NCBI GenBank assembly: GCA_943787745.1
Contig: CALSNJ010000007.1
Span: forward strand, 1-64,000
Length of the DNA stretch: 64,000 nucleotides
Source of the DNA: an uncultured Alphaproteobacteria bacterium
GTDB taxonomy: Bacteria > Pseudomonadota > Alphaproteobacteria > UBA6615
Reading direction: 5' to 3'
Shown: positions 42,149 to 49,342 of the stretch, piece by piece
How positions within the stretch are numbered: position 1 is the stretch's first letter
Layout of the letters: every line of letters begins with the position of its first letter
Made by a program: the position numbers and the translations under genes
The notes under the pieces: model-generated
Databases searched by the model: none
Told to the model about the DNA's origin: nothing
The model's input: the letters and a program-made list of their open reading frames with translations, nothing else

Positions 42149-42222
42149 GCGGGTGTAGCTCAATGGTAGAGCAGAAGCTTCCCAAGCTTACGACGAGGGT
42201 TCGATTCCCTTCACCCGCTCCA
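42149..42222 (+). tRNA. tRNA-Gly(CCC)
   Basis: A complete cloverleaf of 74 nt including encoded CCA. Acceptor arms GCGGGTG and CACCCGC pair fully, the D-arm is GCTCAATGGTAGAGC, the anticodon loop TTCCCAA gives anticodon CCC, and the T-arm is AGGGTTCGATTCCCT. The top pair of the anticodon stem is G-A, a mismatch. The 3' end is the attachment site type used by integrases: an imperfect copy lies at 43273-43303. Confidence 0.95.
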
Positions 42223-42691: not shown

Positions 42692-43033
42692 ATGACCATC
42701 AATCTTACCGAATTGAGAGACGAACCACTGGGAAAGCACCCCAGTCAGGCGCAGTTGTTTGTCGCTTTACTGTCGGTGCTACCGGACGACCGAGCAAGAC
42801 GTTGTGCGCCGACTGACGAGAGCTGTTTCACGTTCGACGTCGACGGCCTTAGCGACGAGGCGCTGGACCCACGCGCTCATCGAGCTCATTTTGTGCTGTC
42901 GGTGAGCGATGGTGCTGCGACTGATGCTACCACGGTGCATGACCGACGCAGCCGCAAGTGGCAGCGATTCGAAATCCCATTTGATGCACAGATAATGGCC
43001 CGGTGCGGTGCTGGTTCTCAGAACCAGTTTTGA
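42692..43033 (+). CDS. Hypothetical protein in tRNA-flanked segment
   Basis: 113 aa beginning MTINLTELRDEPLGKHPSQA. No family is recognised. It has no signal peptide or transmembrane helix; the middle is acidic (DVDGLSDEALDPRAH), the end basic (HDRRSRKWQRFEIPF). A weak AAGAAAGAAG site precedes the ATG and a promoter-like pair lies upstream. It may be a genuine orphan gene of the island or a random open frame; I favour it only modestly. Confidence 0.35.
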   Translation: MTINLTELRDEPLGKHPSQAQLFVALLSVLPDDRARRCAPTDESCFTFDVDGLSDEALDPRAHRAHFVLSVSDGAATDATTVHDRRSRKWQRFEIPFDAQIMARCGAGSQNQF

Positions 43034-43272: not shown

Positions 43273-43303
43273 GGCGAGGGTTCGATTCCTTTCACCCGCG
43301 CCA
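43273..43303 (+). repeat. Imperfect copy of tRNA-Gly 3' end (att-like)
   Basis: GCGAGGGTTCGATTCCTTTC followed by ACCCGCGCCA matches the T-arm and 3' acceptor arm of tRNA-Gly at 42193-42222 with a few substitutions (C to T in the T-arm, T to G before CCA). The 5' part of a tRNA is absent. This is what an attL/attR pair left by site-specific integration into a tRNA gene looks like. Confidence 0.65.
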
Positions 43304-43349: not shown

Positions 43350-43379
43350 TTGTCTTTTTCAGCAGTTAATCAGTATTAT
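43350..43379 (+). promoter_or_regulatory. Promoter candidate overlapping palindrome
   Basis: TTGTCT (43350-43355) and TATTAT (43374-43379) are 18 bases apart, with the -10 element inside the 38-bp palindrome. Transcription would start about 30 bases before the monooxygenase ATG. A protein on the palindrome would block it. Confidence 0.45.
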
Positions 43380-43400
43380 GATCATAATGCTGATTAACTG
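43363..43400. promoter_or_regulatory. 38-bp near-perfect palindromic operator
   Basis: Two 19-base arms starting CAGTTAATCAG (43363-43381 and 43382-43400) are reverse complements with one mismatch (T at 43374 against G at 43389). The centre is ATGATCAT. It lies 14 bases before the monooxygenase ATG, and the MarR regulator is the next gene. Nested half-sites ATCAG and TTAAT suggest more than one dimer can bind. Confidence 0.85.
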
Positions 43401-43414
43401 GAAGGCTTCGCCCC

Positions 43415-44608
43415 ATGACCACAAAACCAATTCTCATTGCAGGGGGTGGCATTGGCGGGCTGTCGGCTGCGCTCGGGCTCGCAGGTAAGGGTTTTGACGT
43501 TGTCGTCTTTGAGAAGGCCTCGAAGTTTGGCGAGATCGGTGCGGGCATCCAGCTGGGGCCGAATGCGTTTCATGCGTTTGACTATTTGGGGGTCGGCGAT
43601 TGGGCGCGGGAAAAAGCCGTCTATGTCGATTATCTGCGGCTCATGGATGCGGTGGATGGAGAATTGATTCTCGACATTCCACTCGATGCAGCGTTTCGCG
43701 AACGTTTTGGCAATCCCTATGCGGTGGTTCATCGCGGAGATCTGCACGGGGTGCTTTTGAAGGGGTGTGAAGAAAGCCCCCACATAAAACTGCAGGTCAG
43801 CAGCGAGGTCGTTTCCTATCAACAGGATGGCGCGGGGGTTCGGGTGCAGCTCGCCAATGGAAAGACTCATGACGGGGTGGCGCTGATCGGCGCGGATGGC
43901 TTGCGCTCCCATGTGCGTGCCCAGCTTGTCGGGGACGGCGCACCGCGGGTGTCGGGACATTCCACGTTTCGGGCGGTCATCCCGACAGAGAAAATGCCGG
44001 AGGATCTGCGCTGGAACGCGGCGGCCCTCTGGGCTGGTCCGAAATGCCATATCGTCCATTACCCGCTCTCGGGCTGGAAATATTTCAATCTCGTTGTGAC
44101 CACCCATGATGATGCGCCCGAAGCGGTGACGGGACAGCCCGTGGCACGGGACGAGGTGCGGCGGCATTTCACCCATATCAGCGAGAAAATCCGCCGGGTG
44201 ATCGAAACCGGGGATGACTGGAAGCTCTGGGTTCTGTGTGACCGGGACCCGATCGACACCTGGGTCGAGGGCCATGTCGCCCTGCTTGGGGATGCTGCCC
44301 ATCCGACCCTCCAGTACTACGCTCAGGGGGCCTGCATGGCCCTGGAGGACTCGGTCTGCCTGTCCCATCTGCTCGACCGCCACCGGGATGATCTGCATGC
44401 CGGGCTGGTTGCCTATCAGGAGGCCCGTGTGGTGCGGACGGCACGGGTCCAACTGGGCTCACGTGCCATCGGCGATCACGTTAATCATCCCGAAGGGGTG
44501 CATGCGCGGGTTCGAAACGAAATCCTGCGGTCATACTCTGTCGAGGATTGTTATGACCGTATTGACTGGCTCTATGGACATCACGGCCTGTCCGGCCTGG
44601 AGGGTTGA
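43415..44608 (+). CDS. FAD-dependent monooxygenase, 3-hydroxybenzoate 6-hydroxylase type
   Basis: 397 aa. ILIAGGGIGGLSAALGLAGK binds FAD, VVHRGDLHGVLLKG is the DG/GD-type block with ALIGADGLRSHVRAQL, and GDAAHPTLQYYAQGACMALE is the flavin-ribityl motif seen in 3-hydroxybenzoate 6-monooxygenases and salicylate hydroxylases. These use NADH and O2 to hydroxylate an aromatic acid, giving gentisate in the first case. Gentisate dioxygenase is not in the window. A GGAAGG ribosome site precedes the ATG; MarR begins four bases after the stop. Confidence 0.88.
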   Translation: MTTKPILIAGGGIGGLSAALGLAGKGFDVVVFEKASKFGEIGAGIQLGPNAFHAFDYLGVGDWAREKAVYVDYLRLMDAVDGELILDIPLDAAFRERFGNPYAVVHRGDLHGVLLKGCEESPHIKLQVSSEVVSYQQDGAGVRVQLANGKTHDGVALIGADGLRSHVRAQLVGDGAPRVSGHSTFRAVIPTEKMPEDLRWNAAALWAGPKCHIVHYPLSGWKYFNLVVTTHDDAPEAVTGQPVARDEVRRHFTHISEKIRRVIETGDDWKLWVLCDRDPIDTWVEGHVALLGDAAHPTLQYYAQGACMALEDSVCLSHLLDRHRDDLHAGLVAYQEARVVRTARVQLGSRAIGDHVNHPEGVHARVRNEILRSYSVEDCYDRIDWLYGHHGLSGLEG

Positions 44609-44612
44609 GCCA

Positions 44613-45095
44613 ATGTCTCAGGCTGATGTGCCCGAACGCGGCGTCTTTGCTGACGTTCAGACGACGCCCGGCCATCTGTTGCGGCGGTTTCAGCAAATCG
44701 CGGTCTCGATGTTTCTCAAAGAATGCCGGGATCTCGACCTGACGCCTTTGCAATTTGCCACATTGGCCGCGCTTTCGGCGGCACCGCCGTTGGATCAGGC
44801 GACGCTCGGCGGGATGGTGGCCCTTGATCGCACCACCATCGGCGTGGTTGTGCGCAAACTGGAAGAACGTGGATTGGTGACGCGCACCACATCGGCTGCG
44901 GACCGGCGTGCGAAGTTGATTCAGATGACCCCTGAAGGCGCAGCTGTTCTCCAGGCGGCCGTGCCGCATGTGGCGCGTGTGCAGGACCATCTTTTGGCGC
45001 CGCTGGACGAAACCGAGCGCGCCCAGCTCGTCGCGTTGATGCGCCGGGTTGTCGTCGCCCATAACGAGGAAAGCCGCGCACCGCTTCGTGTTTGA
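44613..45095 (+). CDS. MarR-family transcriptional regulator
   Basis: 160 aa from an ATG after GGAGGG. LTPLQFATLAALSAAPPLDQ, LGGMVALDRTTIGVVVRKLE then ERGLVTRTTSAADRRAKLIQ form the winged helix, with DRRAKLIQMT the wing. Long N- and C-terminal helices dimerise. MarR proteins usually repress nearby catabolic genes and release DNA on binding an aromatic acid. The palindrome before the co-transcribed monooxygenase is the obvious target. Confidence 0.92.
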   Translation: MSQADVPERGVFADVQTTPGHLLRRFQQIAVSMFLKECRDLDLTPLQFATLAALSAAPPLDQATLGGMVALDRTTIGVVVRKLEERGLVTRTTSAADRRAKLIQMTPEGAAVLQAAVPHVARVQDHLLAPLDETERAQLVALMRRVVVAHNEESRAPLRV

Positions 45096-45144: not shown

Positions 45145-45726
45145 ATGATGCGCACGATCGACATTTCTCCCGAGGACATGGAAAAGCGCGTGTCGCGGTT
45201 TCAGGACCTCAAGCCGCTGCACGCGGCGGCGACCCTCGACATGCCCCAGGAAGCCAAGGACGTGATTTATTCCCGCGAACTTCTGTCCGTGATCGGACTG
45301 GAGGGTGCTGCGGACACGCCGGTCAATCAGGGTGCGCCCATTCAGGGCGCGGGCGGGATCACCATGACCCACGCCAAATGCCCACCGGGCACGGGCCCCT
45401 CTCTGCATGCCCATCAACAGACTTACGAGACCTTCACCGTCCTGCGCGGACGTTTCGAAGTGACCTGGAACGATGACGGCGCGCATCGGGTCGAACTTGA
45501 TGAGTTCGATACGATTTCGGTGCCGCCGGGTGTTTGTCGGGCATTTCGGAATATTGGGGAAGAAGAGGGTTTGCTGCAGGTCGTGATCAGTGGCGGCGTG
45601 CACGATATGACCGATATCGATTTTCCGAAGGGCACGGCCGAACAGCTCGCCGCGTTCGGTGATGATGTGGTCCGGCAATTCGAGGAACGCGGCATGACCT
45701 TTACGGCAGGCAAAGACGCCGCCTGA
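45145..45726 (+). CDS. Cupin-domain protein
   Basis: 193 aa; two adjacent ATGs at 45145 and 45148 after AAGGAGAGC. A single cupin: GPSLHAHQQTYETFTVLRG gives the His-His-Glu set and ISVPPGVCRAFRNIG replaces the usual second-motif His with Cys-Arg. The N-terminal 75 residues are helical. It follows marR by 49 bases and may act on the monooxygenase product, but gentisate dioxygenases are about twice this size, so ring cleavage is only a guess. Confidence 0.78.
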   Translation: MMRTIDISPEDMEKRVSRFQDLKPLHAAATLDMPQEAKDVIYSRELLSVIGLEGAADTPVNQGAPIQGAGGITMTHAKCPPGTGPSLHAHQQTYETFTVLRGRFEVTWNDDGAHRVELDEFDTISVPPGVCRAFRNIGEEEGLLQVVISGGVHDMTDIDFPKGTAEQLAAFGDDVVRQFEERGMTFTAGKDAA

Positions 45727-45842: not shown

Positions 45843-46652
45843 ATGTCCTATCAAACGATTTGTGCCGGTTTTCTTCAGGGTGATCCACGCAATCAGGCGG
45901 TGATGGATGCTGCGATCAAGATGGCGCTGGATCAGGGTGCACATCTCACGGGCGTGCATCTGGTCCCGCCATTGAATGTCCCGATCTATGTGGCGGTGCC
46001 ATTTCCTGACGACCTGATGGCGTCCTATTACGCGGATGCCGAGGCGGAAGGAGAGAAACTGCAGGCGGTCTTTGAGGCCCGATGCGAGAGCGCGGGCGTT
46101 GAATCCCGAGAATGGCATGGCGGCGCGCGAACCGTACTGACGGTGCTGGAAGAACTTGCGGCGGTCACCGACCTCTTTGTTCTCGCCCAGCATACTTCGG
46201 GGGATTATGACTGGTTGTTGGGGGAAGCGACGCTCTTGCTGGGTGTGCCGATCCTTGCGATTCCGGAAGCTGGAAATTTCGAGACCTTCGGGAAGAATGT
46301 GCTGCTCGCATGGGCCCCGCGACGGGAATGCGCCCGCGCTGTTCGGGACGCCATGCCCATCCTCCGTGAGGCCGATCAGGTTGTCGTTCTGCGCGGTGAT
46401 GTGGCTGATGATGCCCGGGACGTTGGCATCGGTGCCTATCTGTCGCGCCATGGGGTCCGGGCCAGTATCAAACATGTGACAACCGATGAGGTCGCCATCG
46501 GCGACGCTATCCTTAACGCAGTCACGGATGAGGGTTGTGACATGATCGTCATGGGGGCCTATGGCCATTCCCGGATCCGGGAAATGACCTTCGGTGGGGC
46601 GACACGCAATGTGCTAAAACACATGACCGCCCCAACAATGCTGTCGCATTAG
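45843..46652 (+). CDS. Tandem universal stress protein
   Basis: 269 aa from ATG MSYQTICAGFLQGD after GGAGG. Two UspA folds are fused: the first has HLTGVHLVPPLNVPIYVAVP and degenerate nucleotide loops, the second ends DMIVMGAYGHSRIREMTFGG then ATRNVLKHMTAP, with the ATP-binding GxxG...G(S/T) pattern MGAYGHSRIREMTFGGATRN. Tandem USPs are often induced under low oxygen or stasis, consistent with the FNR-like box. The first 10 codons of a longer frame are excluded. Confidence 0.9.
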   Translation: MSYQTICAGFLQGDPRNQAVMDAAIKMALDQGAHLTGVHLVPPLNVPIYVAVPFPDDLMASYYADAEAEGEKLQAVFEARCESAGVESREWHGGARTVLTVLEELAAVTDLFVLAQHTSGDYDWLLGEATLLLGVPILAIPEAGNFETFGKNVLLAWAPRRECARAVRDAMPILREADQVVVLRGDVADDARDVGIGAYLSRHGVRASIKHVTTDEVAIGDAILNAVTDEGCDMIVMGAYGHSRIREMTFGGATRNVLKHMTAPTMLSH

Positions 46653-46677
46653 TCGGAGCCCTCACCGCGCGCAGGAA

Positions 46678-47928
46678 ATGATGATCGCACCTGATCAGGA
46701 ACCCACTGTCAGGTTGCGCCGGACGCTCACGCTGCCGTTGCTCACACTCTATGGAGTGGGGGTGACGGTGGGGGCAGGAATCTATGTCCTGACGGGCAAG
46801 GTCATCGGGGTTGCCGGTGTTTTCGCGCCCGTGAGCTTTCTGCTGGCCGCTCTGCTTGCTGGCCTGAGCGCATTGAGTTTTGCCGAACTCGCCGTACGTA
46901 TGCCGCGTGCGGCGGGGGAAGCTCTTTATGTGCGCGAGGGGCTGGGGTCGTCGGTTCTTGCACTCGTGGTGGGGCTGGCGGTGGTGGCCGCTGGCACCAT
47001 ATCGTCCGCGGCGATCGTTCGCGGCTTTGCCGGTTATGCCCGGGTGCTGGTCGATCTGCCGACATTGCTCCTGATTGTGCTCGTTGTGACCCTGCTTTGC
47101 CTGCTCGCGATCTGGGGCATCCGGCAGGCTGTGCTGGTGGCCGCGCTGTTTACGGTGATCGAGGTTGGTGGGTTGCTCCTCATTATCTGGACGGCCCGCG
47201 GATCGTTTGCACAGCTAGATGAATGGGTTCTGGAACTGGGCTCAGAGTTTACAGTCGGGCAGTTGTCCCTTATCGGATCTGCGGCCGTGCTTTCGTTTTT
47301 TGCATTCATCGGCTTTGAAGACATGGTGAATGTCGCCGAGGAAGTCCGCGATGTGGATCGGACCATGCCGCGCGCGATCATTCTCACCATTGTTGTGACC
47401 TCGATGCTCTATGTGGCGATATCCCTGGTCGCGTTGTTGAGTGTCGAGGCGGTTGCGCTGGGCCAGAGTGAGGCCCCGCTCGCCGACCTCTACGCCAGTG
47501 TTTCGGGGCGATCATCCCTGCCGATTGTCATTATCGGGTCGCTTGCGATCATCAATGGTGCCTTGATCCAGATTATCATGGGCTCTCGTGTGCTCTATGG
47601 ACTGGCCAATCAGGGAAACATCCCGGCTGTGTTTGGCTATGTGCACCCGCGTTTCCATACCCCGGTTGTCGCCACGCTGGTAATCGGCGGGATCGTGATG
47701 CTTGGATCGGTTCTGTTGCCCCTTGAGGCGCTTGCGCGCCTGGCATCTATCGTGATCATGAGCGTTTTCGCGGTGGTCAATCTATCATTGATTGTGATCA
47801 AGCGACGTGATGGAAAACCTGAGACGTCGCAGTTTGAGGTGCCAATCTGGGTTCCCGTGACCGGTGGCCTGAGCAGTGCCGGTTTGGTTGTCTTTCAGGC
47901 TCTGGAGTTTCTCGGATTGGCCGGATAA
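46678..47928 (+). CDS. APC-family amino acid permease
   Basis: 416 aa; ATGs at 46678 and 46681, the second better spaced from AGGA. Twelve helices; TLYGVGVTVGAGIYVLTGKV is the helix-1 binding region, FAELAVRMPRAAGEALYVRE helix 3, and FFAFIGFEDMVNVAEEVRDV the helix-6 signature of the APC superfamily. A cationic or neutral amino acid is likely. Starts 25 bases after the stress protein and may share its transcript. Confidence 0.92.
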   Translation: MMIAPDQEPTVRLRRTLTLPLLTLYGVGVTVGAGIYVLTGKVIGVAGVFAPVSFLLAALLAGLSALSFAELAVRMPRAAGEALYVREGLGSSVLALVVGLAVVAAGTISSAAIVRGFAGYARVLVDLPTLLLIVLVVTLLCLLAIWGIRQAVLVAALFTVIEVGGLLLIIWTARGSFAQLDEWVLELGSEFTVGQLSLIGSAAVLSFFAFIGFEDMVNVAEEVRDVDRTMPRAIILTIVVTSMLYVAISLVALLSVEAVALGQSEAPLADLYASVSGRSSLPIVIIGSLAIINGALIQIIMGSRVLYGLANQGNIPAVFGYVHPRFHTPVVATLVIGGIVMLGSVLLPLEALARLASIVIMSVFAVVNLSLIVIKRRDGKPETSQFEVPIWVPVTGGLSSAGLVVFQALEFLGLAG

Positions 47929-48619: not shown

Positions 48620-49342
48620 ATGACGGACCGTCAGAGTTACGGAAATGCTCCACATGCACATCATCGGTGTGATCAATGCGATGTACGCCATAAGGCGATG
48701 TGCGCGGCTGTAGAAGAGAAGGACAATGACCGTCTCGCCGCGATTGTCTCGCACCGGGATATTAGTCCCGGTCAGGTCATCTTCGAAGAGGGTGAGCCTG
48801 CCGAATATGCCTACAATATCTCCAGAGGTGAGGTGCGGCTTTACAAACTTCTGCCCGACGGCCGGCGTCAGATCACAGGGTTCCTCGGGGAGGGAGATTT
48901 CCTCGGTCTCGTGACAGATGACACCTATGCCTATGGCGCAGAGGCCATGACGCCTGTTGAGTTGTGCATCATGCGGCTGAGCAATCTGGAGCGCCTGATT
49001 GCCGATATACCTCCGGTGCGGGATAAACTCCTAGATATGAGCCGGGATGAACTGGCCGCCGCACAGGAGCAGATGCTTTTGCTGGGGCGCAAGACAGCGC
49101 GTGAGAAGCTTCTGTCCTTTCTGCTAAACCGGCTGGATCACAGTGATGTCAAAACATCAGAGGCCAAGATCATTTTGCCGATGTCGCGAACAGACATTGC
49201 GGATTATCTGGGGTTGACGATTGAGACGGTGAGCCGAACGTTCACCGCGCTGCGCGAAGAACGCCTGATAGAGTTGCCAGATACGCACACGGTGATGCTC
49301 CCGGATCTGGAAGCTGTGCGCGACGCATCCGAAGCGCTTTAG
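48620..49342 (+). CDS. FnrL-type Crp/Fnr transcriptional regulator
   Basis: 240 aa. N-terminal Cys17, Cys20 and Cys28 (HRCDQCDVRHKAMC) plus Cys116 (PVELCIMRLSNLE) are spaced as in [4Fe-4S] oxygen sensors of the FnrL/FixK-like group. VIFEEGEPAEYAYNISRGEV is the cyclic-nucleotide-type barrel; MSRTDIADYLGLTIETVSRT then FTALREERLIELP is the helix-turn-helix with ExxSR, which reads TTGAT half-sites. It should switch respiration genes under low oxygen. Confidence 0.92.
   Translation: MTDRQSYGNAPHAHHRCDQCDVRHKAMCAAVEEKDNDRLAAIVSHRDISPGQVIFEEGEPAEYAYNISRGEVRLYKLLPDGRRQITGFLGEGDFLGLVTDDTYAYGAEAMTPVELCIMRLSNLERLIADIPPVRDKLLDMSRDELAAAQEQMLLLGRKTAREKLLSFLLNRLDHSDVKTSEAKIILPMSRTDIADYLGLTIETVSRTFTALREERLIELPDTHTVMLPDLEAVRDASEAL

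Follow-up and report, generated by a model that had tools for sequence, protein, structure and literature searches.

Within the window (the whole stretch of DNA that was analyzed, 64,000 nucleotides long), a 38-bp palindrome lies directly upstream of genes for a flavin-dependent monooxygenase, a MarR-family regulator, and a small cupin. The features considered below, in window positions, are as follows.

43350 to 43355, plus strand: -35-like hexamer TTGTCT, by consensus match, 18 nt before the -10-like hexamer
43363 to 43400, no strand: the whole palindrome, 38 bp, 18 of 19 pairs matched
43368 to 43395, no strand: conserved operator core AATCAGTATTATGATCATAATGCTGATT, identical at 27/28 positions in the same-genus genome G005
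43370 to 43381, plus strand: putative left MarR site TCAGTATTATGA, a 10/12 match to TCAGTATACTGA
43374 to 43379, plus strand: -10-like hexamer TATTAT, by consensus match, within the left arm
43382 to 43393, minus strand: putative right MarR site TCAGCATTATGA (TCATAATGCTGA on the plus strand), abutting the left site
43400 to 43405, plus strand: putative Shine-Dalgarno-like GGAAGG, recognized by reading the sequence, 9 nt before the ATG
43415 to 44608, plus strand: 3-hydroxybenzoate 6-monooxygenase-type FAD monooxygenase, 397 amino acids (NF006021 and active-site residues)
44613 to 45095, plus strand: MarR-family regulator, 160 amino acids, the proposed repressor (PF01047, 46.8 bits)
45145 to 45726, plus strand: small cupin, 193 amino acids, probably the third operon gene (PF07883, Cupin_2)

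Judged by its sequence, the monooxygenase is a member of the 3-hydroxybenzoate 6-hydroxylase (3HB6H) family, scoring 547.2 bits against NF006021 (NCBIfam equivalog cutoff, 459). Gln301 of the Rhodococcus enzyme, which we take to be an active-site residue in addition to the two that follow, aligns with Gln300. The active-site residues His213 and Tyr217 of Rhodococcus 3-hydroxybenzoate 6-hydroxylase (PMC5472690) are also kept and align as His212 and Tyr216. The regulator carries the MarR winged-helix domain (PF01047, cutoff 24.6 bits; PF12802, 46.6 bits, cutoff 27), and its nearest solved structure by sequence is PcaV (PDB entry 4fht; E value of 4.6e-21). The cupin matched no named family beyond the generic Cupin_2 profile, and its AlphaFold model, at a pLDDT of 37.6, is too poor to be of use. 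Based on its distance from the MarR gene (49 bases) and the conserved gene order, the cupin probably belongs to the operon. A cupin adjoining MarR was found in this genus only. The gene order in G005 matches that of the window operon, and the cupin is the best conserved of the operon proteins between the two (84%, versus 78% and about 68%).

The palindrome ends 14 bases before the monooxygenase ATG (43415), and four bases separate the monooxygenase stop (44608) from the MarR ATG (44613). These spacings, with the cupin next in line, agree with the original prediction, which had also described a near-perfect 38-bp palindrome with 19-base arms, one mismatch, and an embedded -10-like TATTAT; its coordinates and sequence were exact. 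The promoter-like pair TTGTCT-18-TATTAT was matched once, compared with 0.1 matches in shuffles. Downstream of the cupin, genes for a universal stress protein and an amino-acid permease (45843 to 47928) occur in an order identical to that of G005; thus, the conserved block exceeds the operon. The permease gene contains a perfect Fnr-type box, TTGATTGTGATCAA (47788 to 47801), about 0.8 kb before a gene for an FnrL/FixK-like protein; this match is possibly due to chance.

Uniqueness and conservation of the palindrome

The arms (43363 to 43381 and 43382 to 43400; CAGTTAATCAGTATTATGA/TCATAATGCTGATTAACTG) are 19 nt each and meet without a spacer, with a single mismatched pair. On a match-minus-mismatch scale, the palindrome scores 16, making it the top palindrome of the window (runner-up, 10). 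The simulated maximum was 14 across 200 Markov-1 windows and 12 with local base composition; a score of 16 was never reached.

The original prediction had suggested a genome search for further copies of the arm, with many copies beside unrelated genes pointing to a repeat family. Across the 3.27-Mb genome, a 7-contig assembly, the 11-base arm CAGTTAATCAG occurs three times, namely, in both arms of the palindrome and as one lone copy. The core pattern has no second copy with fewer than three mismatches elsewhere in the genome; thus, the palindrome is not a repeat family.

Compared with G005, the palindrome core is identical at 28/30 positions, versus 7/30 and 5/18 in the ungapped flanks; coding DNA identity between the two is about 74%. 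The flanking promoter sequence in G005 does not align, and the retained 28-bp core is a perfect palindrome there. Conservation in relatives is confined to the ∼28 bp between 43368 and 43395. The outer CAGTT/AACTG, which extends the palindrome to 38 bp, is mostly lineage specific, with the outermost five bases of each arm mostly unshared. Elsewhere in the genus and family, MarR homologues are distantly related and yielded no further operator copies.

A putative operator motif across the MarR subfamily

When this MarR was aligned with its closest relatives and the alignment was used for a scan, 80 loci were retrieved (81 with G005 added). Gentisate-pathway genes (counted as gentisate dioxygenase, maleylpyruvate isomerase, fumarylpyruvate hydrolase, or a 3HB6H-like gene) lie close to MarR in 60/81 loci, and 3HB6H-like matches are present in 36/81. 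Nitratireductor arenosus (L106) and a Rhodobiaceae MAG (L048) have the gene order monooxygenase-dioxygenase-hydrolase-MarR; in Bradyrhizobium (L059), the dioxygenase gene is divergent from isomerase-MarR-monooxygenase.

These loci share a 12-bp palindromic operator, TCAGTATACTGA, present singly or doubled at 15 bp apart. With up to two mismatches allowed, 84 occurrences were found in MarR loci versus 19 in shuffled loci, although many of the matches come from closely related Bradyrhizobium. For this reason, the test was repeated on 41 nonredundant loci; locus counts are not phylogenetically independent. Inverted half-sites were found at a span of 12 in nine of these loci (background, 0.9) and at a span of 24 in four (background, 0.2), while half-sites repeated at an offset of 15 were found in seven (background, 0.15). 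Azospirillum oryzae, which was outside the motif derivation, has two sites 15 bp apart upstream of an annotated MarR-cupin-FAH-3HB6H-maiA cluster. A clear match to the 12-bp motif was absent in front of the plasmid gentisate-type clusters of Ochrobactrum (L143) and Cupriavidus (L145).

The operon promoter of the window contains a putative copy of this subfamily operator at 43370 to 43381. The window core takes the span-24 form, with TCAGTATTATGA followed directly by TCATAATGCTGA at a 12-bp offset, and can be read as two abutting 12-bp MarR sites. The span-24 form occurs in five loci: the window, G005, an alphaproteobacterial MAG (L049) with a site equal to that of G005 over 28 bp, N. arenosus, and, more weakly, the Rhodobiaceae MAG. 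The inner half-sites fit the 12-bp motif partly, and the fit is poorer still in the latter two. The MarR proteins of all five loci fall within one 9-row clade (support, 99/97). Elsewhere in this clade, the site of Thiothrix (L055) is degenerate, L050 and L080 yielded no operator site, and the contig of L097 begins inside the monooxygenase gene. A protein-independent pattern scan of 385 sampled alphaproteobacterial genomes retrieved one exact site beyond the window, on the L049 contig beside MarR and monooxygenase genes. A two-mismatch site retrieved from genome G142 has none of the operon's genes adjacent and was treated as chance. The operator site includes a -10-like hexamer (TATTAT or CATAAT) in every one of the six promoters compared; the Thiothrix promoter reads TTGACA-17-TATTAT.

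Proposed regulation and alternative explanations

Taken together, we consider it highly probable that the palindrome serves as operator and promoter for a 3HB6H-MarR(-cupin) operon, bound by the adjacent MarR so as to block the -10 hexamer and released by an aromatic acid. The MarR encoded four bases after the monooxygenase would bind the palindrome, cover the embedded -10 region, and thereby repress its own operon; 3-hydroxybenzoate, gentisate, or a close relative would then release the protein and open the promoter. Promoter coverage coupled to ligand release is a common mode of MarR repressors in aromatic catabolism (PMC5487221). The monooxygenase is expected to convert 3-hydroxybenzoate to gentisate; ring opening of gentisate would then fall to a dioxygenase whose gene lies elsewhere in this genome, on contig C1.

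Only one gentisate dioxygenase in the genome exceeds the family cutoff, that on contig C1, and no comparable copy of the operator was found at its locus. Thus, the pathway does not appear to be under one switch, and control of the C1 dioxygenase is apparently separate from that of the 3HB6H operon. Since the operator has a single genomic copy and none at the dioxygenase locus, control is probably local to the 3HB6H operon. Local control by MarR, as originally predicted, is supported by this single site, by the retention of the core amid diverged flanks, and by an operator common to the MarR subfamily. The C1 dioxygenase gene (L135:8820-9920) adjoins TRAP-transporter-like genes, as does its counterpart in G005 (L136), and a fumarylacetoacetate-hydrolase-like gene is nearby.

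How MarR would occupy the palindrome is less certain. The length of the palindrome may reflect two back-to-back 12-bp sites whose inner halves double as -10 hexamers; either a pair of dimers or a single dimer in different registers could then occupy the operator. We tentatively propose, at somewhat less than an even chance, that one gentisate-pathway MarR clade fused two 12-bp operators into a 24- to 28-bp palindrome in this way. It is also possible, if rather doubtful, that a single MarR dimer binds the inner palindrome ATTATGATCATAAT and that the outer TCAG/CTGA merely extend its contacts. The invariance of TATG..CATAAT across the five span-24 sites favors this explanation, as does the usual binding of MarR proteins at one dimer per palindrome (PMC5487221). 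However, the outer TCAG/CTGA, which are the strongest half-sites of the subfamily, are likewise invariant, and relatives either pair them 8 bp apart in the 12-bp site or double them. The -10 role of the inner part would also account for its conservation even if MarR made no direct contact there; these bases may be retained in part for promoter function and in part as inner half-sites. An offset of 12 bp may leave little room for two MarR dimers, which counts against the two-site reading. The original prediction had taken the unusual length of the palindrome to suggest cooperative or nested binding, an idea that gains support because relatives possess single or doubled 12-bp operators and the window appears to hold two that are fused.

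Explanations that do not involve MarR are far less probable. Binding by another regulator is very unlikely: the window encodes a Crp/Fnr regulator, the FnrL/FixK-like protein at 48620 to 49342, and TTAATCAG slightly resembles half of an Fnr box, but no Fnr-box match with two or fewer mismatches falls on the palindrome and the operator tracks this MarR subfamily across species. We consider a role in RNA as a hairpin, attenuator, or terminator to be extremely unlikely. While an RNA copy of a 19-bp inverted repeat could fold on itself, the palindrome contains no terminator-like site, Rfam returned no matches beyond tRNA, and the operators of relatives are short and lack long stems. Moreover, with a -10 hexamer within the palindrome, the transcript would probably start inside it. 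The probability that the palindrome is a mobile repeat or a chance occurrence is close to nil. The 3' end of the tRNA-Gly(CCC) gene at 42149 to 42222 is repeated about 1.08 kb downstream, at 43275 to 43303 (27/29 bases matched by eye, 15 exact), which suggests entry of foreign DNA into the region. The duplication resembles what an element would leave behind after integrating at the tRNA; a 113-amino-acid open reading frame in the inserted stretch (42692 to 43033) matched nothing in Pfam or NCBIfam, and its match in PHROG was no better than chance. G005 lacks this stretch, and its tRNA gene is about 60 bp upstream of the palindrome. Nevertheless, the palindrome is kept in the insert-free G005, is not expected by chance, and has no second genomic copy.

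Regulation by MarR at the palindrome would provide a testable operator for a widespread MarR group regulating gentisate-type aromatic catabolism, and regulators of this type are of use in building hydroxybenzoate biosensors. The single site, the pair 15 bp apart, and the putative fused pair form a natural series in which co-evolution of a repressor site with a -10 hexamer could be followed. If the fusion is true, the same bases would determine repressor affinity, cooperativity, and promoter strength and thereby couple them, with single sites or pairs 15 bp apart in sister clades.

Comparison with known systems

A MarR gene beside a 3HB6H gene has been described in the nagR2-ORF2-nagI''KL cluster of Polaromonas naphthalenivorans CJ2 and in a similar Delftia cluster, whose MarR-type regulator was described as a putative negative regulator (PMC10146988). 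The window shares with these NagR2-type clusters a MarR-type gene adjoining a 3-hydroxybenzoate 6-monooxygenase gene. In the known clusters, gentisate genes adjoin the MarR/3HB6H pair (PMC10146988); the Delftia cluster includes gentisate dioxygenase, hydrolase, and isomerase genes, which the window cluster does not. In contrast to the NagR2-type arrangement, the dioxygenase of the window genome is on another contig and a small cupin gene follows marR. Furthermore, marR is divergent from the operon in Delftia, whereas it is the second gene in the window.

Other regulators show more limited resemblance. MhbR of Burkholderia xenovorans LB400, also of the MarR type, regulates gentisate-related genes and has a predicted palindromic site, ATTGTTTCACAAACTAAT (PMC3572157); this site differs in sequence from the window operator, and MhbR was proposed to control a transporter. 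PcaV of Streptomyces (PDB entry 4fht) and CouR of Rhodococcus (PMC4737184) are likewise MarR repressors of aromatic-acid catabolism, although their pathways differ. CouR recognizes a short inverted repeat, cATTGA--TCAATg, that overlaps the -35 box (PMC4737184). A layout comparable to two fused sites is found in the QacR-type double operator of the TetR family, a 28-bp palindrome on which two cooperating dimers bind overlapping sites (PMC6018408); because the protein family differs from MarR, the analogy is to operator layout only. A literature search for AGTATACTG with MarR returned nothing relevant, and no report of the operator sequence was found in the papers searched.

MarR-controlled 3HB6H/gentisate clusters of the NagR2 type are thus already known, and the window operon is best read as belonging among them. 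Its less ordinary features are an apparently fused double operator confined to a single clade and a ring-cleavage gene that lies apart from the operon.
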